Source of the DNA: Cladocopium goreaui
Taxonomy: Eukaryota > Sar > Dinophyceae > Suessiales > Symbiodiniaceae
NCBI GenBank assembly: GCA_947184155.2
Contig: CAMXCT020001719.1
Coordinates: forward strand, 62,001 to 126,000
Length of the DNA stretch: 64,000 nucleotides
Direction: 5' to 3'
Within the stretch, counting starts at the first letter, position 1, and each line of letters starts with the position of its first letter. The notes under the pieces are model-generated. The model ran no database searches. It was not told the DNA's origin and worked only from the letters and a program-made list of their open reading frames with translations. Of this stretch, positions 48,555 through 64,000 are shown one piece after another. The translations under genes and the position numbers were made by a program.

Positions 48555-49350
48555 ATCTTCTAATCTAACATAATCTAACCTAATCTAACCTAATTTAATC
48601 TAATCTTATCTTATCTAATCTTATCTCATTTTATCTTGTTTTATCTTGTTTTTTCTTGCTTGATCTTATCTATCTTATCTATCTAATCTATCTAACCTAT
48701 ATAATCTATCTAACCTATCCAACCTATCTAATCTATCTAATCTATCTAATCGATCAAATCTATCAAATCTATCTAATCAATCTAATTTAATCTATCTAAT
48801 CTAATCTTTCTAACGTATCTATTAATCTATCTATTTAGTCTATCTATTTAACATGTCTATTTAATCTACCTCTTTAATCTGTCCATTTTATCTGTCTATT
48901 TAACCTGTCTGTTTAATCTATCTATTTAATCTATCTATTTAATCTATCTATCTAATTTATCTTTTTAATCTATCTATTTAACCTATCTATTTAACCTAAT
49001 CTAATCTAATCCAACCTAATCTTATCTAATCTCATCTAACCTAGTCTAATCAAATCTATCGAATCTATCTAATCTATCTAATCGATCTAATCGATCTAAT
49101 CTAGCTAATCTATCTAATCTATCTAATCTATCTAATCTATCTAATCTATCTAAGCTATCTAATCTATCGAATCTATCTAATCGATCTAATCTATATATCT
49201 AATCTATATATCTAATCTACTTATCTATCTAATCTATCTAATCTATCTAATTTATCTAAGCTATCTAATCTATCTAATCTACCTATTCTATCTAATCTAT
49301 CAATCTAGCAATCTATCAATCTATCTAGCTATCCATCCATCTATCTATCG
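48555..49350. repeat. Degenerate (TCTAATCTA)-type tetranucleotide/pentanucleotide array
   Basis: About 800 bp built from tctaatc, tatctaatc and tatttaatc variants with no stable period, gradually changing from taatctaacc to ctatctaatc. No ORF, no TIR. It separates the plus-strand host genes from the telomere-like block. Confidence 0.95.
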
Positions 49351-49374
49351 ATCTTTATAAACACACCTTGTATC

Positions 49375-50078
49375 CCTACATGTACCTTAATCCAACCCTC
49401 AACAGACTTTAATCCGACCATAAATCAACCCTAAATAACCATAAATAGCCCTAAACAACCCTAAATTACCATAAGCCAACCATAAACCAACCCAACATAA
49501 CCCTCCCTAAATAAACCCTAAACCAACCCGAAACTGAATAACCCTAAGCCAACCCTAAATAAACTTTAGACTAACCCTAAATAAACCATAAACCGAAACC
49601 CTAAACAAACCCTAAACCAACCCTAAATAACCCTAAATAACCCTAAATAAGCCCTATATAAACAAATTTTAAATAAACCGTAAACCAACCCTAAATAAAC
49701 CCTAACCCAACCCTAAATAAACCTTAAACCAACTCTAAAGCAAGCCTAAATAAACCCTAAACCAAGCCTAAATAAACCCTAAACAAACTTTAAATACACC
49801 GTAAACCAACCCTAAATAAACCCAAACCCAACCCTAACTAAATTTAAACCAACCCTAAATAACCCGAAATAACCCTAAACCAACCGTAAATAAACACTAA
49901 CCCCAACCCTAAATAAACCCTCAACAAACCCTAAACCAAGCCTAAATAGACCCCAAACCAACCCTAAATAAACCCTAAGCAAACACCAAATAAACCCTAA
50001 ACCAGACTTAAACATAACCTAAATGACCCTAAACCAACCCTAAACCAACCCTAACTAAATTTAAGCCAACCCTAAATC
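49375..50078. repeat. Degenerate telomere-like (CCCTAAA) block
   Basis: About 700 bp made of ccctaaa cores separated by taaa, cca and similar spacers (ccctaaataaaccctaaacc). CCCTAAA is the complement of the TTTAGGG telomere repeat reported for dinoflagellates and plants. Tandem register is lost almost everywhere, so it is not an active telomere. It ends sharply at the retroelement at about 50078. Confidence 0.85.
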
Positions 50079-51068
50079 ACGAAAGGTAGCGTCAGCTACC
50101 TGAGTTCTCCGTGCTTCAGCACAATCATAGGGGGTATTGGGGGGCCAGCCCGGGCTAAACGAGGAATTCTCGCCGTTATGTATTGGATATCAATTATAAG
50201 GGGGGGGGTGAAGAGGGGCCCTAGCGTCTACTTCAAGATCAGCTAAGGCGTCTTCCCCAATGACAGCACTCTTTTACTCAGCCTGTTGCCGGTCAGTGCT
50301 ATGTCTACAGGGTTACTCTATATACCTCTTGAGCCTTGAAGGGGCGCATATAAATGTGCTCAATACTCATGCATAATACCTGGTAGGTATTAGGTCGAAA
50401 CAAAAACACAGGCACAAATTCAAAAGCAATGAGTAGAGCACTACGCCTTGTCGTACTCAATCAGTATTAAGAGTATCTTCCTGTTTTCTCTACACAATGG
50501 CAAATAGCAAAAATAAACCGGAGTTACGCAGTGGCTTCGAATTGAAAAACACGTGAAAGCAGCGAATGTCCTAAAGACATGCCGAAAAAGAACAGCGGAT
50601 TCGCTAATTTTTCCAGTAGCGACCAATGGTGCTTCGCGCACGGTCTCTCCACAGGCAAAATGCCTCGCTCTACCGGTGAAAGTTCGAATTGAAAAGTTCG
50701 GTTCGCAAGATTCAGAAATAATTCCGGTCATACGAAAAACAATTGACCAAATCACGAAATAAACGGAAATAGCGGATCTCCAAAGTTGCTCATTCAAGCA
50801 ACAATGGACAGAAATCGAAGTTGGTAAATTTTTGGAGTTCGCTCCATTCGGAGTGGTCTGCTCGCAGAAAATTCATGGAGATAAATGTGTATAGTATCTC
50901 TATCTACAAGAGTATCTATTTTACATTAAATTGAAATTCAGACACTTGTGGCATTTTCTCTATCTCAAAGAGTATATGCCATTTTTGTGAAAAATAAGTT
51001 GATGCACAGAAAAACTGTACACGGCTTCTCATGCTGTGTTATCTTCATCTAAAGAAGTATACACTTTT
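50079..51068 (-). other. 3' non-coding end of the retroelement, probable LTR
   Basis: About 1 kb without credible ORF between the last coding region and the telomere-like block. It has two small perfect hairpins at the outer edge: 50085-50100 (ggtagc/gctacc, 4-nt loop) and 50111-50122 (gtgct/agcac). It also holds three diverged copies of a ~28-nt motif (tctctatctacaagagtatc; tctctatctcaaagagtata; tcttcatctaaagaagtata) at 50898, 50957 and 51048. This should contain the 3' LTR; the partner LTR is outside the window. Confidence 0.55.
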
Positions 51069-53444
51069 TCATCGCCACTCACTTTGTCTCCATGGTCTGG
51101 ACGTAGAAGATGAGGATCCACCCCAACTCATGTTGCCCTGCTGCGTTGATGCCTGATCTTCATATGCCTTTCTCTTTTTCTCCTTCTGTCTTTCCTTCCT
51201 GTGTTGAGTATACATCATCTTCTGCATGCCATGCTTGTAATGATGTTTCTCATTCCACGACATATCAGAAGGATCCAAATGCACAAGAATAGGATTATGG
51301 GCATCGCGATCGTTTGGAGCAACCATGAAGATATTATGATCACCATGTAAGCAAGTTTCATTTACCTTGAAGTAAAATTCACCCACATAGTTCATGTGAT
51401 CTTCATCTCCATCAAAGTCTTCTGGGTGTTCCTCACACATCAAACGTGAATGACCCCACTCAACAACTGAAAGCATACAACAATCACCTTTACCATTTGT
51501 CTTGTTCATGAGCTCGTCGGTGTATGTTGCTGTTGTAATGCCATCCAAGTGCGTTGCAAGAAAATCCAAGTCACGATAACTGCAAGAAATGAAATGCTTG
51601 ACCCTGACTGGAGGGCAAGATGAATCAAAATGCTTGCGCATGGCTTGTGTTGCAACACCCATCATTCTGTTGATCCAGAATTGTATGAGGCTGTGTTGAT
51701 ATGTAGGGACACCTGGAGATTTTGGTGTTGTGTAGTAGCATGCCTTGTTTCCATCACCTGCGATGACGTCAACTTGATATCTAGCACACTCAAAAGCCAT
51801 AACAGCTAAACACTCACCAACAATACCAGGAGAGTCTGATGCATACTTCTGTCCGACGTGATAAACGCACACACGTGTCATCTTCATCCTGCCTCTGGTC
51901 AAGTCAACAGTCTCATCTGTATCACGGTTCTTTGTCTTTCCCCAAGATACTTCAAAGATTGCCCATGAGACTTGTCGAACTCATGTGTCGTTTTCGTCTG
52001 TCTGATATCCAGCAATTTGCCTGATATATCCTTCCTTTCCGAGGCGAGCTGCCACCATCAAGTCATGATAATCATTGAAGCAAGTTTTAAAGTCAACCTC
52101 GTTGAGTCTCTCTCTGTGAGGATACAACGAACCAGCTTCACAATTCATGAAAAGATGTCCTCCAAAGTTCTTGATGACGTTGATGAAGTAATTGTTGAAC
52201 TGTGTCTTGTTCTCATCAAACCTTAAATGATCTTCATCAATTGTGTAGTCAATGTGTGGAATGAGTTGTTGAAATCTTTCTGGAACTGGGCATTTGTCAA
52301 ATCTGCTTCTGCACCAGTTTCCCAAATTCCAAAACATGACTGTAATGTGTGGAGAGGATCTGTATGGAAATTCGGCATCCTTGTATGTTGGGTCTGTTAG
52401 GCCTCCACCTAAATATCTGTAAGCCAAGCTATGCAAGATCACACAGTAAGGCAAGACCTTGTGGTCCTCAACATAATCTCGAAGTACCTTTGTCAGATTT
52501 CCAAAATCGTCATCAATTCTTCGTTCTGCTTCTTTTGAGGCTGCTTCTGCTTTGTTTTGATGAAGAGGATGCAATCTTGGATCACTACAACCATATTCAA
52601 TATGATTCTTGAGTTCTTCTAGTTCTTGTAGTGGTTGTTGATCCTTATGTCTGGCAATGTACTCCATCATCAACTGGTCATCTGTAAGATGGTACCAAAA
52701 ATCTTGATGTGCAGACATAGTCTTCCTGTACTTGACATGCCAAAACATGTGTCGATGCTTCGAAGACGCTGGAAAACCTTTGTTGTAAAATCCTGCCCAT
52801 TCACCATGGTAACCATCTGAAAAACAATCCTTCAATTTTCGAAAAACTGAATCATCTTCGTTTCCAGTGATATCTTGACCATAGTAAAATCGAACTGCAG
52901 GTTTCACTTCAGGAGCTGTCTCATCATCTTGAATGTCTGTCTTTTTCTCCCCTGATTCCTCCTTCTCTGAGGAGCGTTCAGGTGGAGCTGATTCCTCTTT
53001 CTCAAAAGAGCTTTCAGCTGGGACATGTGGCTCCTTTGTATCTTCTTCTCCTTCTTCTTCTTCGACAACAATCTCCTCTTCTTCATCTTCTTTTTCTTCC
53101 TCTTGTCGTTCTTCTTGTTTGACAAAACTATCCTTGATCTTTTGTTGAACATTCTTGTTGCACATACTGATCCACTTCAATGTACACTCAACCAATTTGT
53201 CATCATCTGTTTCCAAAATTATGTGCTTGTCCTCAATGTTCAAACTTTCAATAGTGTTCTTGTATTCAGGATCTGCACTACTTGGTCCTTGAAGGTCTGG
53301 TAGAAGAGTTTCTGGATCATCGTCTGCTAAATCTGGCTCCTCAACATCAAGGAAATTGTCTGATGTGATGTGCTCATTGTCCTTGAGAACCTTTGTAATA
53401 TCCAGTTTGAATGAACTCATGGTATTGATCATAGGAGATCTCAT
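51069..53444 (-). CDS. Accessory ORF with EEP nuclease-like domain, interrupted
   Basis: Frame from about 53420 (MSSFKLDITKVLKDNEHI is a natural start; the ORF is open from 53444) to 51981, where an in-frame TGA occurs; the same frame then continues to 51069. The N-terminal part is acidic (EE/ED runs, residues 110-175), then a conserved-looking globular region (VRFYYGQDI onward), then motifs of the endonuclease/exonuclease/phosphatase superfamily: ITVMFWNLGNW (367-377), MNCEAGSL (433-440), and after the stop VDVIAGDGNKACYY (45-57 of the second part) and VVEWGHSRLM (146-155). N, E, D-x-N and the final H correspond to the usual metal and catalytic positions. Such enzymes include AP endonucleases, deadenylases and LINE endonucleases. 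The TGA falls inside the domain. Confidence 0.6.
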
Positions 53445-56400
53445 AACCCATTGCTGGTGCCCAGTAGTCCATGAATATTCTGAATGTAGAATCTGCCAAT
53501 GCTACCATCATCATCATCAAGGAGAAATAACTGATGTCACCACGTTGCAAGGGCTGATCTCCCTCCAAATCATCACCTCTGAGGATGTTTTGGCCTGTGA
53601 GCGTAATCTCATGCAGGATTCTGCGGTGCTCTGGTTTGAGTTGCCTGATCAAGAATTGCCCATGTCGGTCATCAGGAGTTCTTCGAGGATGTGCATCAGG
53701 TAGTACATCTTGTTCATGTTCTTCTAAGTTCCACCATGCAATAACCTCTTCTGGTTGAGTAGGTATTTGTGTTTCCTCTCTCTCTCTGGAAAGCATACAC
53801 CTTCTTCCTCTCTTTCTTGAGAGCTTGTACCTTTTTCCTCCTGTGGCCTCACAAAAACATTTAATCGTGGCAAAAACTTGAGTTCTTCATCAGCATCATC
53901 ATCATCTTCGTGATCTTCCATGTCAATGTTTTGTTGCTCCTTCTCTGGAATGTGTGCAATCTTCTCCTTGCCTGCTATCCAGATGTAACCATCGAGCTTT
54001 GTAGATACATCAAAGTCACCTGAACCACATTCCTTGACCTTTGTTCGTGCTCTTGCAGATTGATGGAATGCTTCATGCTGAAAGAACTGGTTTTAGGCAT
54101 GTTCAACAAAGAATCTGTAGGATTGAGCTGTCAATTCCTTTCTGCTATCCACAAATTGTCGAAGCTTGTTCAAAGCAAACACTGTGAAATGGCTGAAGTT
54201 AGCAGGTGCTTCATCTTCATGCAGATCGATTGCCATGATCATCATCTTTGTGGAAAACGAGAAGTGCCGTTCAGGTTCAGGGATGACTGTTCTCTTGTTC
54301 ATGGGAACTGTAATTCCTTGGATAGTCATGTCATACCCATGTGTGTTCAACTCCAGTGCATCCAAAATGTTACCATCACGGTCTTTCTTTCTCTTGCAGA
54401 AATCTCCCCAGAGTTTGTTGTTCTCTCTAACGAACTGATCAAGATGCTTGGTGTAGAAGACAAAGACTGCTTCTGAGAGATACTCCATGTCCTTCTGTAT
54501 TGCTAAGTCTCTTTCATATAGCAAGAACTTCTCTCTCCAGTCTTCTCTGTTGATACTGAATCTGTCTTCCCAACCTGCTGGTTCAACTTGACCTCGCATC
54601 CAGTCTGTCCAATGTCGTCGACAAGAGTCCATGGCTTCAATGTTTTGTTCCTTATGGAAATGTGCCAACATGCGTCCAATTTCCCAGGCTCTGGTGAAGA
54701 GTAGGCATAAATGTCCTGTCCATGGAAGCTTCTCCCAGTCTGCGCGAGTGATAGATTGTCTACGAAGTGCTATCTTTTGTGAAGAAAGTAGGAGATTCCA
54801 TTCACGTAGAACTATCACTTTTTCTCCTGAGGAGTTCTTGATGAGTTCACCGTTCTCTTCTCTTGCACAGACAATACCAGCTTCATAAAGGACCCAGGGA
54901 TTCGATGCAGAAATTGAACTTCTGGTAGCCTGTTCTACAACAGTGTCTTCAATATCATCTGGTGGATCTTCTGCTTCCCAGAGGTTGACGATTTCTTCAC
55001 CCATTGGGTCGTCCTGGACTTCCACTGATGGCTCCTCCTGTTGATTGTCTTGAGCATCTTGTTGAGGATCATCTTGTTGTGGAGGTTCTGAACTTCCTGA
55101 TGATGAGCGTTGTTGCTCGCATGCATCTTGAGGTTCCTCTCTTTCTGGAGAGCGTCCTCTTCTTGATGGTTGTTCATATGGGTTTTCCATGGTTTCATCA
55201 ACTTGTGCAGATGCCTCTCTTTCTTGAGAGCTTTCTGCTACAGTACCATAGATTGAATCCATAGCAGGGTCAAAATCTCTCTCGTTGCATAATGGTGTAC
55301 CAAAAACCCATCTTCCATAGTTTTGTGGAACTTGTTGACCCATGAATTCCCATGCTGTGATTCTGACTTCATCAGGAATCTCTTGTCCAGGAAGAAAACT
55401 TGGACCTTTCTCCTTCATAACATGTTTCCATGTTGTGTTGGCATGCCATGAACCACCTGTAACTGATGGAGGTAGAGAATGACCACGTCCTTGATAAACC
55501 ACATTGCATGCTATTGTGGGAATCTGTTCCTTGACGTGGAGGTACTGGAAAGGAATGTCACCATGAAATAAAACGACACCATTCTTTGTCAGGTAGAGTT
55601 GGTTATCCACAATAAAACTTGGATCCAACACGAGGTACACTGGTCGTCTATATGTTCTTGGTGGCTTAGTGCCCTCTGCCATCCTGATGTAGCCCTGACC
55701 GTTGTCATTGTGGTACATGAAGTGTACTGCATCTCTTCCACCTTTTCCACTTCCTTTCACATTGGTCATTAGGCCTGATTGTTGAATGGAATCTAAGTTG
55801 GTGAAATCCGTGACATGAAAAATCCAGCCCAAACTCATAGCCTCATCATATGTCAGTTGGTGATGTGCCACAGTAGGATCGACAACTTGGTTGCTATGTC
55901 CCTGAAAAGCACCAAGACGAACGTCGAATGGATATTCTGCAGCTGGACTATATGGGAACCACCTCCATTTCAGTGAGATCTCGACAAAGAATCTTTGCTT
56001 AGGATTACACAGTAACATGGCAGCAAAATCTGCACCAGACATGTGATATTCCTTTGGATTGTCTCGCTGCATCTGATCGAATAAAAGAGAAATGTTCATA
56101 GCTCCACTGGACGTGAACAAAGTTCTGTCTCTGCAATGTCTCAACACTGACGACAACTTCTTGCTACACCTAATGTAGTAGCTCTGCCTCTGTGGGCCTG
56201 TCATGTCAATGTGAAAATCACTGCATCTTTTGTCAAACCAGTTCTCTTCTTCTTGGGTTGTAAAACCACAGAGATACTTCAGAAACTCAGCAATCCACTT
56301 CAGAGAATCATCAAACTCTCCATTGGCTGTGCCCCAATAAAGAATCCAGGAAATAGCATCCATGAACATCTCATACCTGTCTGTCGATCTCATGTTGTGT

Positions 56401-56756
56401 GGTCCCATCAACGTGTGTAGGTTCCTCTCTCTCATCTTCCTCACTCTACTGTGAGCCTGATACCAATCTGTTCGTTGCCTGTAATTGTAGCAAAATGCTA
56501 AATGGTCCTCGTTGGGTAGTGTTGATGGTGTTCGAAATCTTTCAGCTGGGATTTCCTCTGATCTTCTCAGAGCATATCCATCAGCTGAATGTGTTCCAGT
56601 AGCATCGATTCCAGACGTGCGATATCCTTGACCTCGAGTGTTAGATTGTGCCTGATCTCTAGATGCTGCGGCTGAGGTCCTATTCCACCGGCTAGAGCTC
56701 GACATGTTGAAGAAACAGTACGATCCTCGAGACTCTGCCTCTTGAGCCGCAGGCAC
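53374..56756 (-). CDS. Accessory ORF with Tpt1/KptA-like RNA 2'-phosphotransferase domain
   Basis: Likely start MSSSSRWNRTS at 56705. Tpt1/KptA transfers the 2'-phosphate of spliced RNA to NAD+. Counting from 56756, the family landmarks appear in order: KKLSSVLRH (199-207), RLGAFQGHSNQ (280-290, with H287 in the QGHS motif), IFHVTDFTNLDSIQQSGL (312-329; HVT where HGT/HAT is usual), GRDAVHFMYH (340-349) and VYLVLDPS ... YLTKNGVVLFHGDIPFQYL (373-406). A low-complexity Gln/Glu/Ser linker follows (500-600), then a helical region. An in-frame TAA at 54093-54095 ends the 887-codon frame, but the same frame stays coding-like (GYIWIAGKEKIAHIPEKEQQ) to about 53790, where a (GA)n run shifts to the frame ending at 53374 (PEEVIAWWNLEEHEQDV). 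Confidence 0.7.
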
Positions 56757-56771
56757 AAATTCAAAAAATAG

Positions 56772-59165
56772 TCAAGAATCCCTCAAGGTGTCACCTAACA
56801 GAAATACATCATGTCTGAAATCAACATGACTGCAAACTGTTGGCAACCATGACCTGAGGTACGCCTTGTGTTCCAGTAATGATCTAAATGGTGGATGAGC
56901 ATCAACTTCTTTAAGAACACCTTGTCGAACAGCATCAATAAGATTCTGAGGATTGGCAGACTTCTTAGTCAAACAATCAGCTAAACACCATTGAGTTCTG
57001 ATATGTGACAAGTCAGCAATGGAACCTGAACATGCTTCCTTCCTAAGCATCTGAATCATATGAATAGTCTCTTGTTGTTCAGGAACATGAGTGGTGCTGG
57101 CAGTAGTCACAAGATTGTTTGCATCAGTCCTCATATGAATCTCACTTGAAAGTCCAGTGATGTCCTTGATCAGTCCTCTCAACATTTGACATGTACCATA
57201 ACACTTCATGAGTGCCTACAACTCTGCAACAGTTGTGCTCAAAGTGGTTCGTTTGATTTTGGTTGGTTCAAAGAAAATAAGAGAACCTCTCGTGTTTCTG
57301 CTCTTTTCCTTTCTCGGTTCAGCCATGAAAATAACCATCGCGCGCTGTGAGGATTTGTCGCTGTTGTTCCTAAACGCTGCATCTGGCATTGCAACTAATC
57401 TAGGATCACCTTGAAGTGGCCAGAACATAAGTTCCATCGGGTCACCTACAATTTGCCTGCAAAGTTTGTTGAGCATTTTGCAATCACCTATGGTGGGGGC
57501 AGCAGCGGCAGAAGCACAACGTGAAAACTGATAACATGACTGAAATTGAGTTCTTGATTGTAACCAATTGATACTACCTAAGAGTGACCTATAGGCAGTG
57601 TGGAGATCCTTGTCACATTTGTCTTCATCCTTCAAGCCTTTAGGTATGACAACCTCAGTAAGTTCACTGACACAAAGTGACTGTTCAACTGTGATGTGTG
57701 ATTTCTTCTTGGTCTTCTCGTCAATGATCCATTTCACACGTTGACCAGTGAACATCAAGTCATTCACATCTTCATGACCAATCTTGAATTGTGACTTGAC
57801 AACTTTCTTGAACTTCTCCAGAAACTCTGGAGTTCCAGTGATAAACAAGTCATCAACATGCAAACAACACATGCCAATAGGTTTTCTTCCCTTGGCATTA
57901 CTGCCGTTCACAGGGTCCATGAAGTGTTCCAAGAGTTGTTCAACAATCTCAGGTGTCAACTGCGGTATCGTGGCAAGATAAGTACGCTCTGAAGGTAAGA
58001 AGACTGAAACAAGTACTTCAGCTTCTTCTTCCAAACTTGTGGAAACGTTTTCCTTGTTCATGTCATGATTCATCTCAAGCAACCACCAAACTCCTTTCCT
58101 CTTCACAATAGAAGTCCTCAAGTGAAACTTCTTTCGATCATAATGTGAATCAGGAGTTCCCAAAGCTTTTGCACGATAAGCAACTTGAGCATGACCATTT
58201 TCAAAAGGATACCAACCAGACTTGTGTTCAACAGATTCCAAAAACTTCAACAAGGTTTCATCAACAACAGGAGTCCAAGCACAATCTTCAACCTTCTTCT
58301 CCTTGAACTCTTTCCTATGTTTCCATGTTTGGGTTTGTTGATAGCAAGCTGAAAACAATCTTTCTTCAACCAAAAGAGACTTATGAACTTCCTCAGCAAT
58401 GTCGGAGGATTCATCACGCGTTTCCTCACTGTCTTGTGAGCTTACGTAGTATGTCACCGGTGCTGGTTCTGTTGCCTCAGAGTCAGCAAAGCTAACCTGT
58501 TTTGGCTCCTTAAAAGCACCATCATAGCATACATATGTACACCTGTCTGCTCTTGTTGGTTGGATACCAAGCGAAATCAGAAATTTGTCAAGGCGGTTCC
58601 ACCATCTACGTGGTGCGTCCGCAAGTCCATAGACGGAACGAGTGCACAAACCGACCAAGTAAGGAGGCAAACCAATGTCAGTAGGCAACTGAACATGGAT
58701 AACGCGGCGGTCTAAGTCGTATGTTTCCCCCTGAAGGAAGGCAGTTTTCAAGTCTAAATGGAGTAAATCCCAGTACATCGAGGCTGCATGCTGAGATGCC
58801 ACGCGAAAACCATACCTGGTAGCAGTAGGACTGTCAGTCTGTAAGTCATACTTTTGAGCATCTTGAAAGCCTCTACATACCCATCTAGCCTTGAACTTCT
58901 TGAACTGTCCATCCTTATCAACCTTGATGGTAAGCACCCATCTGCCAGTGACATAGTTGTCAATCTTATGACGTCTCTTGTCTCTGAAAGTCATGGCAGT
59001 AAAATCTAGAAAACTTCTGAATTCTTCAAGCTTGGCTTGTTTGATCTCCTTAGCATACTTTCTCAAGACTTCTTGAGTGATGACTGATTGCCTTTGGCTG
59101 CTTCTTTCCATTCTTGGCAAGATACTGTTCAAACTGTTTGAAACCAGTATCATCGTATGAACCAA
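56772..59165 (-). CDS. Reverse transcriptase and RNase H, Ty1/copia type, interrupted
   Basis: Copies the element RNA into DNA and degrades the template. In the ORF from 59165: GRWVLTIKVDKDGQFKKFKA (74-93) and the palm start HLDLKTAFLQG (136-146), RSVYGLADAPRRWW (176-189), then an insertion of about 215 residues, then the active-site box CCLHVDDLFITG (433-444; HVDD for YVDD). RNase H follows with DAAFRNNSD and STTVAEL, then an in-frame TAG at 57216-57218 inside the domain, then the rest from 57209 in the same frame (RTDANNLV, RTQWCLADCLTK), ending at 56772. The N-terminal 30 codons of this frame are probably out of phase with upstream coding; the frame changes near 59060-59110. Confidence 0.85.
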
Positions 59166-59390
59166 AGTCAGGTGCAGCTTGAATCTTGGGTCCTAAAGGA
59201 ACAAAAACAGTACCATCAATGTCAACAAAATGAGAGTGGTCTGATGTGTAAGGTTCAGTGTCCACATCTTCCTCCTGAAGCTGAGAAATGTCATCCTCAG
59301 TCAAAACAGGAGTGTCGTCTGTTTCATATGGTTCTGTTTCATCATCATCGTTTTGTGATGATAAAAAATTCTGGTGTTCCTTGTGAAGAC
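59050..59390 (-). CDS. Linker between integrase and reverse transcriptase, frame-shifted
   Basis: Coding continues in a third frame between the integrase ORF end (59345) and the RT ORF: acidic sequence SSQNDDDETEPYETDDTPVL, then DISQLQEEDVDTEPYTSDHS, FVPLGPKIQAAPDFGSYDD, and KQFEQYLAKNGKKQPK. It begins at the T6 run (59365-59370 on plus as AAAAAA) and returns to the RT frame around 59060-59110. Both changes are of the same direction (+1). This is the acidic inter-domain spacer of the polyprotein. Confidence 0.6.
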
Positions 59391-62300
59391 TGCTGTTGCG
59401 CTGGCTGCGCAAAGTCACCTGGCATAAACGATGTTGGTGTAGTAGTAGGCAATGGAATTGTATTATCATGTGAACTTGAGGCAGTAGGATCATGTGAAGG
59501 TCCTTCATCTTCATCTTCATGAGGTTTCTGAGTAGGAACTGAAATTGGCTGAACATGACCTGGTAATTGAACCTTTGGCCTCTTGATAATCACCTTTGCC
59601 TTTGCCTTTGGTAAAGCATCAGTAGAATCAGTTGAGATCTGTCTCTGTTTCCTTTGTACTCTGATAGGCTCTGACGTTGGATCAGGTCCTGGTGGAGAAT
59701 CGTCATCTTGTCCAGGATCAGCAATCTCTTCGATTGGAATGTCAGGATTGGAAAACGGAGTTGATGGTGAACTTGGTTGATGTGTTTCCCCCGAGTCCTG
59801 TATTCCTGGCATATCCAAATCATCATCAGGTGGTGGTCCATAATCATCTGGAATGATGTATTCTTGATCGTCATCATCATCTGGATCTGGTCCAGTGTTA
59901 TAATCAGGTTGATTATCATCATCCAGAGGATCTCCTGGTTCATCACCACTCCACATCTCATCATCATGTGGTGGTACATCACCATGCTGATCTGGATGAA
60001 TGAGATCGTCACCATTTGGTGGAGTGCTACTTGAACTAGGAGGATCTTCAACTCTCCTTTTGATAGCACCAGTCGTTTCACGTGAAAAGACGATCATACT
60101 CCATTCATGGATTCTGAACTGTTCATGATGTGGATACAACTGTGACACAAACATGAAGTAAACATGATCATAGTCACCAGGTTTCCAAATGAGTAAGACA
60201 GCATCTTCAGGATGTTGAAACAAAGGATTCACTCTTCCATAAGTTCCTCTGAACACACTGCAATCTTCAAAGTACATTTGAGGCAATGTCTTTTTCCTGT
60301 TATCCTGAAGTCCAGGAATCAATTCAATGATTCTGGGGTCAGTTGATTCTCTGACACTAGCCTCTGTACTCCTTGGCAACTGATCAATCTTTCTCAATGT
60401 TTGAACAAGTAACTGAGTGGTAAACCTCTGTGGAAGGATGTGCTTCAATGGCACTGGAATAGAGGTCTCAACATGATGCAAGTCTTGCAACAAACATGAG
60501 CACTCAGGTTCACGGTCCAAAAACATTGACGTGCCACACAATGCTCCATCATCAAAATGTTCCAACAGATCTTCAAACAAGAAATACTGTCTCATGTCCC
60601 TCAACGGTACAAGCTGTGTGAACTGCGCAATGAATGAACACAAGTAAGATGGTAAGACCTTCCATTGTGGATCATTCCAAAGCTTCCCTTCTCTACTGAA
60701 GGCATGCTGTGGTTCCAACATATCAAGGTCTTCATCATGATTGTAAAACACACGCAAGTTTTTGATTGAAGGATCACAACGACAGTAGTTTGTCATGTCA
60801 AGGTTGAAACAACTAATGTGATACTTGATTCTGTCATTCTGATGTTTCTTCCAAGCCAAGAACTGAGCAAATCCTGAATCAGGTGGTGCAATCACCAAGA
60901 AACCTTTTCCTCGGTCAACTTGCCATTTCATCACGTCGAGGCAAAACTTGAATACCGAGTATTTCCAGGAATTTGGTGAAGGATTTGTGATCAACACATA
61001 TTCAGGATCAAGCTTCTCAAGTTGTTTCCAAACTTGGTTTTTTTTCTTCTTACTGTTGAAACTCCATCCATGCTTGTGGTCAACAGGTTCACCAACCTTC
61101 ATGTTCAATCGTGCCATGTGCCAACTAAGACCAGTGTTGCTACTAAAGAGTTCCACAACATCACACTTGCCAGTCTGACAAAACCAGTGAGCTTGTTCAC
61201 CTAAGTAGGCTTCAGCATATTCAGCTATGTCTGGTTCATAGTTATCTTCATCTTCAACTGCAAGTGGAACAGGTTCTGATGTGTCAAGTCCAGGAACAGC
61301 AACATCATGCCATTCATCATGGTCACGTCTCACTTTTGATTGATTGACACGCATGACTGCGTTGTCAACATGAACATTGACCATAGCACCTTCCTGAGAG
61401 ATAACAGTACCTCTGATCCATCTTTCCTTTTTCCATGCCTTTGAAGCAATAGCATTAGCATTGACAGGGGAACTCCAAACGAAAACCTTGTCACCTGGTC
61501 TATAAGGTCCATCTGATGGCATTGTTCGCTTGGCCATGTCATGTCTGAGGTCAGCAGCTTGTCTGGCTTCCTGATGTGCCCTCAGTGCTAACCTTTGCAA
61601 CTCGAGTTGTGTTCTGTCTTCAGGTAAAGGGTCAACACTAAGTTGAGCAGGATCAGAAGTCTCAATGTCCAGAAGATCTGGTGGTCGTCTACCAGTGGCA
61701 ATTTCCAAAGGAGAATAACCACTAACAGTAAGTTGAGTGTTTCTGGCCCAAACAGTACGCTTCACAGCTTCTCTAATGGTAATTCCTCTGAACCTATCAT
61801 CTTCAAGGTTCTTTGACATGATTTGCCTTTGTCGTTTGAAAAGTCTGACAGCTGATTCAGCTCTGTTAGGCCATGGGGTTCTTGAACCACAGGGACATTC
61901 CTTGATACCATGAGTTCGGTAATAAGTCAGAAAGTCTTCTTGAAAGAAAGCTTCATCACCTACTATGGCTTTCGGCATACAATTATGTTCATCAGTCCAC
62001 AACCTTAGAGCCTGAATGGTCTCCTTGTTGTTCAGTGAGTTTTGTGCCGTAGCCCAAAGTAAGTTGGTTGCACCATCAAGAACAAGCAACACCATGTACT
62101 TGTTCTTCCTCAACTTAATTTCAGCATGATCAACAAAGATAACATCTCCAAAGTTGGTGGATCGTATGCCTGAAATCCTGGCTCTCGGCGGTGGTGCAAT
62201 TGAAGTACTACACACACGACACTTGTTGTACATTTCTTCATACTTCTCAAAAACAGAGTCAGGAAGTCCTAACATGGAAGTCCTTCGTCTGAATTGAGTA

Positions 62301-62422
62301 GGAGACATGTGATAGTGTTTGATATGAAGCTTGTAAAGTTCCACACTATCCTCCTGTTTCCTGAGCATCTTTCTGTATGCTGGTGTCATGGCTTGCACTT
62401 CACTACCAGGCGGTGGAATCAA
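59345..62422 (-). CDS. Integrase with C-terminal methyltransferase-like module
   Basis: Inserts the cDNA into the genome. From 62422: zinc-binding N-domain with histidines at 33-38 and C68/C71; catalytic core with D98 (FVDHAEI), D156 (VGDEAFF) and E189 (NRAESAVRLFKR), 32 residues after D156; GYSPLEIATGRRP (235-247), as in copia integrases; an SH3-like C-domain at about 308-365 (GDKVFVWSS ... RVNQSKVRRD). Beyond it, 420-575 has features of an S-adenosylmethionine-dependent methyltransferase: DVVELFSSNTGLSWHMARLN (421-440), VLITNPSPNSW (476-486) and GFLVIAPPDSG (507-517). An acidic Pro/Asp-rich spacer (about 830-1020) ends the ORF. The initiation codon is nominal; it is expressed by frame change from the protease frame. 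Confidence 0.85.
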   Translation of the reverse strand: MIPPPGSEVQAMTPAYRKMLRKQEDSVELYKLHIKHYHMSPTQFRRRTSMLGLPDSVFEKYEEMYNKCRVCSTSIAPPPRARISGIRSTNFGDVIFVDHAEIKLRKNKYMVLLVLDGATNLLWATAQNSLNNKETIQALRLWTDEHNCMPKAIVGDEAFFQEDFLTYYRTHGIKECPCGSRTPWPNRAESAVRLFKRQRQIMSKNLEDDRFRGITIREAVKRTVWARNTQLTVSGYSPLEIATGRRPPDLLDIETSDPAQLSVDPLPEDRTQLELQRLALRAHQEARQAADLRHDMAKRTMPSDGPYRPGDKVFVWSSPVNANAIASKAWKKERWIRGTVISQEGAMVNVHVDNAVMRVNQSKVRRDHDEWHDVAVPGLDTSEPVPLAVEDEDNYEPDIAEYAEAYLGEQAHWFCQTGKCDVVELFSSNTGLSWHMARLNMKVGEPVDHKHGWSFNSKKKKNQVWKQLEKLDPEYVLITNPSPNSWKYSVFKFCLDVMKWQVDRGKGFLVIAPPDSGFAQFLAWKKHQNDRIKYHISCFNLDMTNYCRCDPSIKNLRVFYNHDEDLDMLEPQHAFSREGKLWNDPQWKVLPSYLCSFIAQFTQLVPLRDMRQYFLFEDLLEHFDDGALCGTSMFLDREPECSCLLQDLHHVETSIPVPLKHILPQRFTTQLLVQTLRKIDQLPRSTEASVRESTDPRIIELIPGLQDNRKKTLPQMYFEDCSVFRGTYGRVNPLFQHPEDAVLLIWKPGDYDHVYFMFVSQLYPHHEQFRIHEWSMIVFSRETTGAIKRRVEDPPSSSSTPPNGDDLIHPDQHGDVPPHDDEMWSGDEPGDPLDDDNQPDYNTGPDPDDDDDQEYIIPDDYGPPPDDDLDMPGIQDSGETHQPSSPSTPFSNPDIPIEEIADPGQDDDSPPGPDPTSEPIRVQRKQRQISTDSTDALPKAKAKVIIKRPKVQLPGHVQPISVPTQKPHEDEDEGPSHDPTASSSHDNTIPLPTTTPTSFMPGDFAQPAQQQSSQGTPEFFIITKR

Positions 62423-64000
62423 ACTCGCCTAGGCTCAAGAGCATCACTACCTAGTTTCTCAACTTGACTTTCTGAATCTTGCTTACCACGTTTGCGCACA
62501 GGTGCAGAATGTTTTGGTTCAATGACTTGAGGTTCATCTGAATCAATTTTGTCCAAACCTAACTCCCTAGCTACCTTGTCAAGTTCATCTTCTTCATCAA
62601 GCTTGGGATAGGAGACAACAACCTTCTTTCTCGATGAACCTGATTGAGAGTCATCGACGACTTGAGGTTTCTGCTTACCTACGTGTCTCTTGGCTGCAGG
62701 TGGACCTACCTCAATCTTTTTCGAGCTTGGTCCTTTCGAAATCGGTTTGCCTTCCTCCTTCTTTAAGGAGCTTGGCTTCTTTTTCTGTACACCTGATGGC
62801 ACTGAAGAGGCTGACTCAGGGTGAAAAAGTTCATCAATGTTTCCCCGAAAGGGCCTTGCACGATCAATGTCACTTCTGACAATTTCATCTGGGATCACGT
62901 AGTCCTCCTTGATCTTGTAGATGGTCTTGCCCTTCCAGAACTCTTCACTCTGTTCAGAAAACCTTTTCCTTTCAGTGCGCCAGTTGTCCTTGTGAAGAAC
63001 CTTCTTCTTGCTCTTCTGGAATTCCATGTGAGTCTCTCTCTCATCAAGAAGTTGATCTTTTGGAATTGGAGTCTTCTCTGATCGAGTCATCTCATGTAAG
63101 TTCATTCTCTTGTCCTTGTGGTGCCTGATGAGTTCACGACGTAATGGATCAACCTGCCAGTAGTCACCAAGCACCAAAACTTCTCCTTCATGATCATCTT
63201 GTTTGACAGCAATCTGGCTGTACTCAAAGTGATCGTGTTGTGAAAAGAAACTCTTGACTTGAGGAGTCTTGAAATGAACTTGGCCCATGTGCCATGCTAC
63301 ACCTTGTAGGTCGAGAATGAGATGAGTACTGATGGCTGTCCTCAAAACCATTTTTCTCATGCCAATACGTGCACAGGACAAATAAGCCTTCTCTGGAGTA
63401 AGTTCAAATTGAAATCCAAGGTTTCTCATCTGTGGAAGTGACATCAACAATGGGACATTACCTTCTTCGACAATGTCGAATTCTGTGAACTGAGTGTTCC
63501 ATCCATGATCATACATGAATATCACGAGCTTCTCAGTACATTTGGATTGTTGTGAATTTGCAAAGAAGAATCTTGAACTTGTTGGCTGAATTTCATACCA
63601 GAGTCCACTGTTGGGATGTGAGTCAACATATCTGCGAAATGATTCAACTGCTCGTCGAGAGCCCATAGCTCTTGTGCATCCAAGATCCAGAATACACACA
63701 GTTGGTGGTGCAGAATTCTCTGTGTGAAAAGCTAGTCCATTCTCACATGCCAGATCAGTCTGTACAGTATGAAATGAAAAAGCACTCTGCTCTGATGGTT
63801 CCTCTATCTCTGTAGAGCATCCATGTGAAAACAATGTTGTGCCTTTTGCCAATGGCTTCCATGAAGCCTCACCTTCTTGAAGACCAACTTGCCTGGGCAC
63901 ACGAGCTGGACGTCGTTGTACACCTTGTCGAAGTGCATCAACTTCTCCACCCAGAACAGGGAATCTTTTCATTTCCCTTCTGTTTTGATGTGCTGTTGCA
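62419..64000 (-). CDS. Protease region of the copia polyprotein, 5' open
   Basis: The frame is open to the window edge and probably continues upstream into Gag. From the Met at 63972, the aspartic protease site is ILDLGCTRAMGSR (D96), in the position of DTGAT/DSGCS, and GNVPLLMSLPQMRNLGF (171-187) is the second conserved strand region (usually ILG). A basic Lys/Ser-rich region (residues 390-470: KPSSLKKEEGKPISK) links to integrase. The frame stops at TGA 62419-62421; the integrase frame lies at -1 and is closed by a TAG only about ten bases upstream, so any frameshift must occur in that very short overlap. Confidence 0.8.
   Translation of the reverse strand, partial: ATAHQNRREMKRFPVLGGEVDALRQGVQRRPARVPRQVGLQEGEASWKPLAKGTTLFSHGCSTEIEEPSEQSAFSFHTVQTDLACENGLAFHTENSAPPTVCILDLGCTRAMGSRRAVESFRRYVDSHPNSGLWYEIQPTSSRFFFANSQQSKCTEKLVIFMYDHGWNTQFTEFDIVEEGNVPLLMSLPQMRNLGFQFELTPEKAYLSCARIGMRKMVLRTAISTHLILDLQGVAWHMGQVHFKTPQVKSFFSQHDHFEYSQIAVKQDDHEGEVLVLGDYWQVDPLRRELIRHHKDKRMNLHEMTRSEKTPIPKDQLLDERETHMEFQKSKKKVLHKDNWRTERKRFSEQSEEFWKGKTIYKIKEDYVIPDEIVRSDIDRARPFRGNIDELFHPESASSVPSGVQKKKPSSLKKEEGKPISKGPSSKKIEVGPPAAKRHVGKQKPQVVDDSQSGSSRKKVVVSYPKLDEEDELDKVARELGLDKIDSDEPQVIEPKHSAPVRKRGKQDSESQVEKLGSDALEPRRV

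Follow-up and report, generated by a model that had tools for sequence, protein, structure and literature searches.

Tpt1/KptA enzymes remove 2'-phosphates using NAD+, and their retention in organisms without a yeast-type RNA ligase is a long-standing puzzle (PMC6333775). KptA domains have also been described in jumbo phages, sawfly nucleopolyhedroviruses, Bodo saltans mimivirus, and the polyproteins of a picorna-like virus and a nidovirus, where they were read as cleaning up ends left by RNases (PMC9503650). These viral carriers and the LINE and DIRS retrotransposons of Symbiodinium that carry a DNA methyltransferase (DNMT) (PMC5890265) are the nearest precedents for the elements reported here. 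The viral cases share a KptA domain on a replicating genetic element, in some of them within a polyprotein, but the carriers are not retroelements, and the word retrotransposon is absent from the text of that study (PMC9503650). The Symbiodinium elements are the nearest of all, being dinoflagellate retroelements that keep an acquired nucleic-acid-modifying enzyme; the enzyme is a different one, the Copia elements described there have no DNMT, and the main text contains none of the words phosphotransferase, KptA, or Tpt1 (PMC5890265).

A further point of comparison is Ty1/copia, including the half-tRNA-primed hemiviruses, in which cDNA starts at a 3'-OH inside the tRNA anticodon arm (PMC1181622). 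The Tpt1-bearing elements share with this group RVT_2, a putative integrase frame before the reverse transcriptase (RT), short TG...CA long terminal repeats (LTRs), and 5-bp duplications, but they are 12.6–15.8 kb long and carry a Tpt1-bearing second open reading frame (ORF2) or extension behind RNase H, joined in one family by an EEP-like domain. Literature searches combining KptA, Tpt1, phosphotransferase, or PF01885 with retrotransposon, dinoflagellate, or Symbiodinium gave no report of a Tpt1-bearing retroelement among the matches listed, subscription papers being mostly outside their scope.

Here we describe dinoflagellate LTR retroelements that stably carry, under selection, a divergent Tpt1 domain with its catalytic residues. 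In one family it forms the front of ORF2 behind pol, and in a second it lies within the polyprotein. Judged from the sequences, the domain is probably an enzyme that acts catalytically on RNA ends and has been kept by selection for use in the element's own replication, a reading to which we give a probability of roughly 55%.

The window analyzed was a 64,000-nucleotide stretch of the Cladocopium goreaui genome (contig CAMXCT020001719.1), and all element features given below lie on its minus strand. An open frame at 54093–56771 spans 892 codons from stop to stop; it is identical to the 887-codon ORF of the original prediction, which was counted from 56756, and the RNase H stop (TGA, 56774–56772) does lie 15 bp before that start, as had been claimed. 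String searches of this frame recovered the predicted Tpt1 landmarks LRH (56136–56144), KQRF (55989–56000), QGHS (55893–55904), HVT (55809–55817), RDAVH (55722–55736), and NGVVLFHGD (55557–55583). Both a search with the Pfam profile (PTS_2-RNA) and a structure prediction had been proposed as checks, and both identified Tpt1. PF01885, the sole Pfam family on the frame at E≤1, matched residues 200–402 with 35.9 bits (E 9.8e-9) against a curated cut-off of 26. For the predicted structure of residues 120–440, Foldseek gave 20 matches at E≤0.001, every one a solved Tpt1/KptA chain, and the model has the two-lobed Tpt1 fold. The TM-scores by target length (0.42–0.59 in the 20 best Foldseek rows) indicate a partial structural match and count against a catalytic role in replication. 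A phmmer search of the frame against PDB sequences gave three matches at E≤1 but no Tpt1. The domain is therefore very divergent, and it is identified by its Pfam profile, fold, and residues. PF01885 also matched other copies, with 36.8 bits in the sibling copy C5532 and 50.0 bits in the second family (group C, below). These results confirm that 54093–56771 encodes a divergent Tpt1/KptA domain, located at 55566–56174 and carrying an R-H-R-R tetrad and H-V-T.

The frame lies in an LTR element of 15,755 bases end to end (15.76 kb). Its 3' LTR (200 bp, TG...CA, 50209–50408) is 99.5% identical to the 200-bp 5' LTR, which lies in contig sequence past the window end (extended coordinates 65764–65963), with CCCCC on both outer sides. 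The gag frame is represented by its 3' part (62422–64000) and runs on past the window end, its start and the 5' LTR being outside the window. The putative integrase-bearing frame (59345–62428), in which D, D, and E were located by eye at 62120–62134, 61946–61960, and 61847–61864, had no Pfam match at E≤1. The RT frame (57216–59192) matched RVT_2 with 69.8 bits (cut-off 31.6), and past an in-frame stop the RNase H part, named by eye, reads on to 56775 and ends in a TGA at 56772–56774. ORF2 follows, with a first part of 892 codons (54093–56771) that is continuous with the remaining ORF2 in many siblings, and two further fragments at 51981–53501 and 51069–51980. The window copy is broken, since gag-integrase, RT-RNase H, and ORF2 are each split. 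TG...CA LTRs with a 5-bp target duplication were found in the window copy, in C5532, and in all five group C copies, the duplications being identified by eye. The bases following the 5' LTR of the window family, TGGTAGCGGAGC, resemble a whole tRNA end rather than a cut one, which again counts against the preferred reading. Directly 3' of the element, at 48558–50096, are dense tandem arrays with units of approximately 9, 11, and 13 bases. The sequence GGCTCAAGAGG occurs in the LTRs (the 50320–50335 region of the 3' LTR) and before ORF2 (56738–56748).

To find further copies, we searched the genome (1.17 Gb, 6,202 contigs) with the 892-aa frame and scored 51 of 2,010 candidates, obtaining at least 54 matches. 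Among the 54 listed, 48 were near full length and 46 of these had no internal stop; 22 of the 48 lay in frames of at least 1,838 codons without an internal stop. In many siblings the Tpt1 frame opens a second ORF of approximately 1,885 aa, and one ORF2 cluster of the protein collection (P0067) comprises 884 member sequences. Among the relatives, symbB.v1.2.031468, s3538_g6, and s3220_g11 (EukProt names) are presumably Symbiodiniaceae gene models; most of the others are nameless. The LTR stretches of C5532 are 99.0% identical to each other, and a GCCCT duplication was identified by eye; its RT-RNase H frame has 1,114 codons and its unbroken ORF2 has 1,882. Because the LTRs are near identical in the window copy, in C5532, and in group C (99.4–100%), the Tpt1 carriers fetched were inserted recently.

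The broken frames of the window copy could suggest a host gene or an unrelated insert lying beside one dead copia copy. We give this almost no weight, since the Tpt1 frame lies between matching LTRs, stands behind the RNase H stop in 20/20 loci, and is part of one unbroken polyprotein in group C. An insert confined to one locus is ruled out by the many copies on the same pol with matching LTRs. The search for RT and Tpt1 on a single element with matching LTRs, suggested together with the original prediction, thus succeeded, and neither of the outcomes it had named as fatal, namely the lack of a profile or fold match and an unrelated insertion at this locus, occurred. Its description of a Ty1/copia element with a Tpt1 gene stands with respect to RVT_2 and to PF01885 and the fold, but it had missed the larger ORF2, the EEP-like domain, and the presence of Tpt1 in at least one other LTR family and in a third RT-bearing frame.

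ORF2 begins immediately after the RNase H frame, which terminates in TGA-CTA, at each of the 20 loci compared, among them the window copy. In one additional copy, C3958, the stop is missing and the frame reads through. UGA-CUA is a weak stop context (PMC4207609), and ORF2 may be expressed through a leaky stop, although not universally, as it is in frame with the RNase H stop at only 16/20 loci. Expression from a separate start may also occur, and this too would be non-universal: the first start codon (MSSSS, 56703–56705 in the window) is ATG at 18/20 loci and GTG at 2/20. A third route, spliced-leader trans-splicing of the ORF2 mRNA, is a guess. It draws on GGCTCAAG, present before ORF2 and in the LTR, which equals the end of the dinoflagellate spliced leader but is altered before ORF2 in C5532. 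The leader had 172 exact genome matches, versus none for its reversed control. The junction also carries a 17-base repeat, TTTTGAATTTGTGCCTG, which is found directly behind the RNase H stop (56750–56766) and against the 3' LTR (50409–50425), identical in all three copies with both ends in hand. From sequence comparison, it may be a trace of the ORF2 segment having inserted where an earlier element ended on its 3' side, or it may serve as a second plus-strand priming site; only its placement favors a capture scar, since other internal repeats of 14–26 bases exist.

The end of ORF2 looks like an exonuclease/endonuclease/phosphatase (EEP) domain. The best Foldseek and VIA rows for this region, modeled from C5532, belonged to the EEP superfamily (DNase I, Nocturnin, TDP2, PDE12, CNOT6L, and ANGEL2), and EEP motif residues are retained. 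In the window, the N in FWNLGNW (52314–52346) and the E in NCEAG (52125–52148) lie in the fragment that starts the region, and GDGN (51735–51761) and DxH (51276–51308) lie in its C-terminal part. The ORF2 end resembles the superfamily in fold rows and motif residues, but it has no Pfam match at E≤5 and a low-confidence model (mean pLDDT 62.8), both of which count against the preferred reading.

Residue conservation in the Tpt1 domain was assessed by aligning 23 window-type rows with 18 cellular-type rows (17 bacterial-type and one canonical frame of the host genome). In the window-type rows, the tetrad residues were R in 22/23 (one gap), H in 22/23 (one gap), R in 23/23, and R in 22/23 (Cys in P0059). 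The H and T of the H-x-T motif were present in 23/23, with V as the middle residue in 21 and A in two. Among loci L020–L039 (n=20, window copy included), VLRHC, QGHS, FHVTD, and RDAVHF were found in 20/20 and KQRFF in 18/20. The original prediction had suggested that the change from HGT to HVT may alter NAD+ binding. In solved Tpt1, it is the His and Thr of HGT that contact NAD+ (PMC6333775), and both are retained throughout the window-type rows, so a loss of NAD+ binding is not indicated. Compared with Tpt1/KptA (PF01885), the element domain shares the profile match, the two-lobed fold, the Arg-His-Arg-Arg tetrad, and H-x-T, but is very divergent, has HVT or HAT in place of HGT, contains inserts between motifs, and sits in a retroelement ORF; group C additionally lacks the tetrad His.

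Group C emerged from a genome search with PF01885, in which 150 of 1,496 candidates were scored and all 150 were above the cut-off. Among the 150 scored, 14 lay in frames of at least 4,000 codons, and five copies of those 14 were sampled. All five have a single unbroken 4,026-codon frame with Tpt1 inside, in elements of 12.58–12.60 kb bounded by LTRs of 170–174 bp (100% identical in four copies, 99.4% in one), with 5-bp duplications in 5/5 (by eye) and GGGGGG before the 3' LTR. The sequence after the 5' LTR, GAGACTACGGCTGATAACC, reads by eye as an anticodon-arm complement. In a Pfam search of C5598, CCCH-type zinc fingers exceeded their cut-off, protease and RVT_2 matches (16.2 bits for RVT_2) fell below theirs, and Tpt1 scored 50 bits behind the RT region. 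We regard group C as a copia-like second family. BLASTP of window-family frames against its polyprotein gave no match covering Tpt1 at E≤1 and one weak match (E 2.2e-4) outside Tpt1. Between C5598 and C2546 (L010–L013), synonymous distance was uneven, from 0.0025 in gag to 0.113 in INT, which looks like recombination between lineages.

In group C, the tetrad reads R-G-R-R, the motif reads HRT, and Tyr replaces the later His, in 5/5 rows. The Gly in place of the tetrad His and the HRT motif count against a catalytic role in replication, and they would suit a captured domain that now binds nucleic acid or serves structurally without catalysis. We consider this improbable, since all five group C rows and nearly all window-type rows retain the three Arg residues together with the motif's H and T.

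A third set of loci (group A, L004–L008) holds a closer Tpt1 (95.8 bits for L005) that has the Arg-His-Arg-Arg tetrad and HGT in 5/5. In L004, L005, L006, and L008, Tpt1 lies behind an RNase H-like stretch, and in C2112 an RT-like stretch lies upstream of Tpt1 in the same frame. RT and RNase H of group A were named by eye only; the RT, by eye not copia-like, had no Pfam match at E≤1 and no PDB sequence match at E≤10. Group A is probably a mobile element. Among other PF01885-bearing frames, the 335-codon frame of L001 (contig C1209) is a canonical Tpt1 and a candidate host enzyme. The frames of L003 (contig C1, 7.38 Mb) and L002 (contig C5523) are of bacterial KptA type, that of L003 being 77% identical to a Pirellulales protein, which suggests that both contigs are bacterial contamination in the assembly. 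Contig C5927 carries two PF01885 matches of 61.5 bits (56561–57175 and 71715–72329), 15 kb apart and by score neither window type nor group C.

Selection was examined in both families. For group C, where two diverged lineages only were compared and Tpt1 had three non-synonymous changes, dN/dS of the C4889 lineage against C5598 and C2546 was 0.033 and 0.027 for Tpt1, 0.046 and 0.042 for RT-RNase H, and 0.053 and 0.034 for INT. Tpt1 of group C is therefore as constrained as RT (dN/dS about 0.03) and is clearly kept. For the window family, 153 pairs of 18 of the 20 loci (L024 and L035, without the MSSSS anchor, excluded) gave 0.21 for Tpt1, compared with 0.35 in the preceding stretch and 0.21–0.26 behind it; between C5532 and C274, RT-RNase H had the lowest value (0.068), with the EEP region at 0.17 and Tpt1 at 0.20. 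Window-family Tpt1 is thus kept, but its constraint is looser than that of RT-RNase H, which counts against the preferred reading. These values also bear on a counter-defense role, in which the domain would repair tRNAs of the host, or RNA of the element, after a host RNase response had cut them. This is one interpretation offered for viral KptA (PMC9503650), but a constraint level with that of RT in group C fits a core replication step at least equally well, and we consider counter-defense unlikely.

Phylogenetic analysis included 15 of 16 loci (the short match L061 was excluded) and 22 proteins from a set of 66, with P0077 and P0079 counted within the 22; two alignments were based on 30 and 14 hand-picked sequences. 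Three separate clades on long branches were recovered, one for the window type, one for group C, and one for group A. A branch with support of 94/69, which is not decisive, had the first two together on one side. Placing all retroelement Tpt1 in a single clade cost 2.17 log units (AU p 0.42, with long-branch warnings), and one origin for the Tpt1 of all three kinds is thus not rejected by these sequences. Separate captures are not a forced reading.

If the domain is used in replication, as we favor, it would act on phosphate-bearing nucleic-acid ends while the element replicates, and the likeliest step would be NAD+-dependent removal of a 2'-phosphate. The substrate could be an RNA end, either a tRNA-fragment primer or cut genomic RNA, once a 2',3'-cyclic end had been opened, or it could be the junction left after such an end is extended, which would resemble the splice junction normally cleaned by Tpt1. 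In the window family, the EEP-like domain of the same ORF could provide a second end-processing activity. The end clean-up proposed for viral KptA (PMC9503650) counts in favor of such a role. No tRNA gene was found in the window or in 14 loci. The half-tRNA primer of copia is reportedly produced by RNase P, leaving a clean 3'-OH, which speaks against a general need for primer healing.

A different outcome of the same chemistry would be capping, in which ADP-ribose is placed on 5'-phosphate ends of element RNA or cDNA and protects these ends against nucleases or ligation. Both RNA and DNA can receive 5'-phospho-ADP-ribose ends from Tpt1-type enzymes (PMC11833690), and KptA-DNA complexes were, by title, among the matched structures, but the present results do not set capping apart from 2'-phosphate removal, and as a separate account we hold it to be rather doubtful. 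We rank 2'-phosphate removal first, whether at an RNA end or where primer and cDNA join, followed by capping, counter-defense, and a non-catalytic role. The more specific proposal that an NAD+-dependent RNA-end step is built into the reverse transcription of more than one kind of dinoflagellate retroelement, either by clearing a 2'-phosphate from a tRNA-fragment primer or from its junction with the cDNA, or by 5'-ADP-ribose capping, with an EEP partner in the window family, is put forward tentatively.

These elements link Tpt1 to a single process, their own copying and spread, and they offer many young, unbroken copies, so that the substrate of the enzyme can be sought in a defined setting. 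If the reading given above is correct, an RNA-repair or capping enzyme would join the parts list of LTR elements, and dinoflagellate retroelements would have acquired a second enzyme class beside the DNA methyltransferase.
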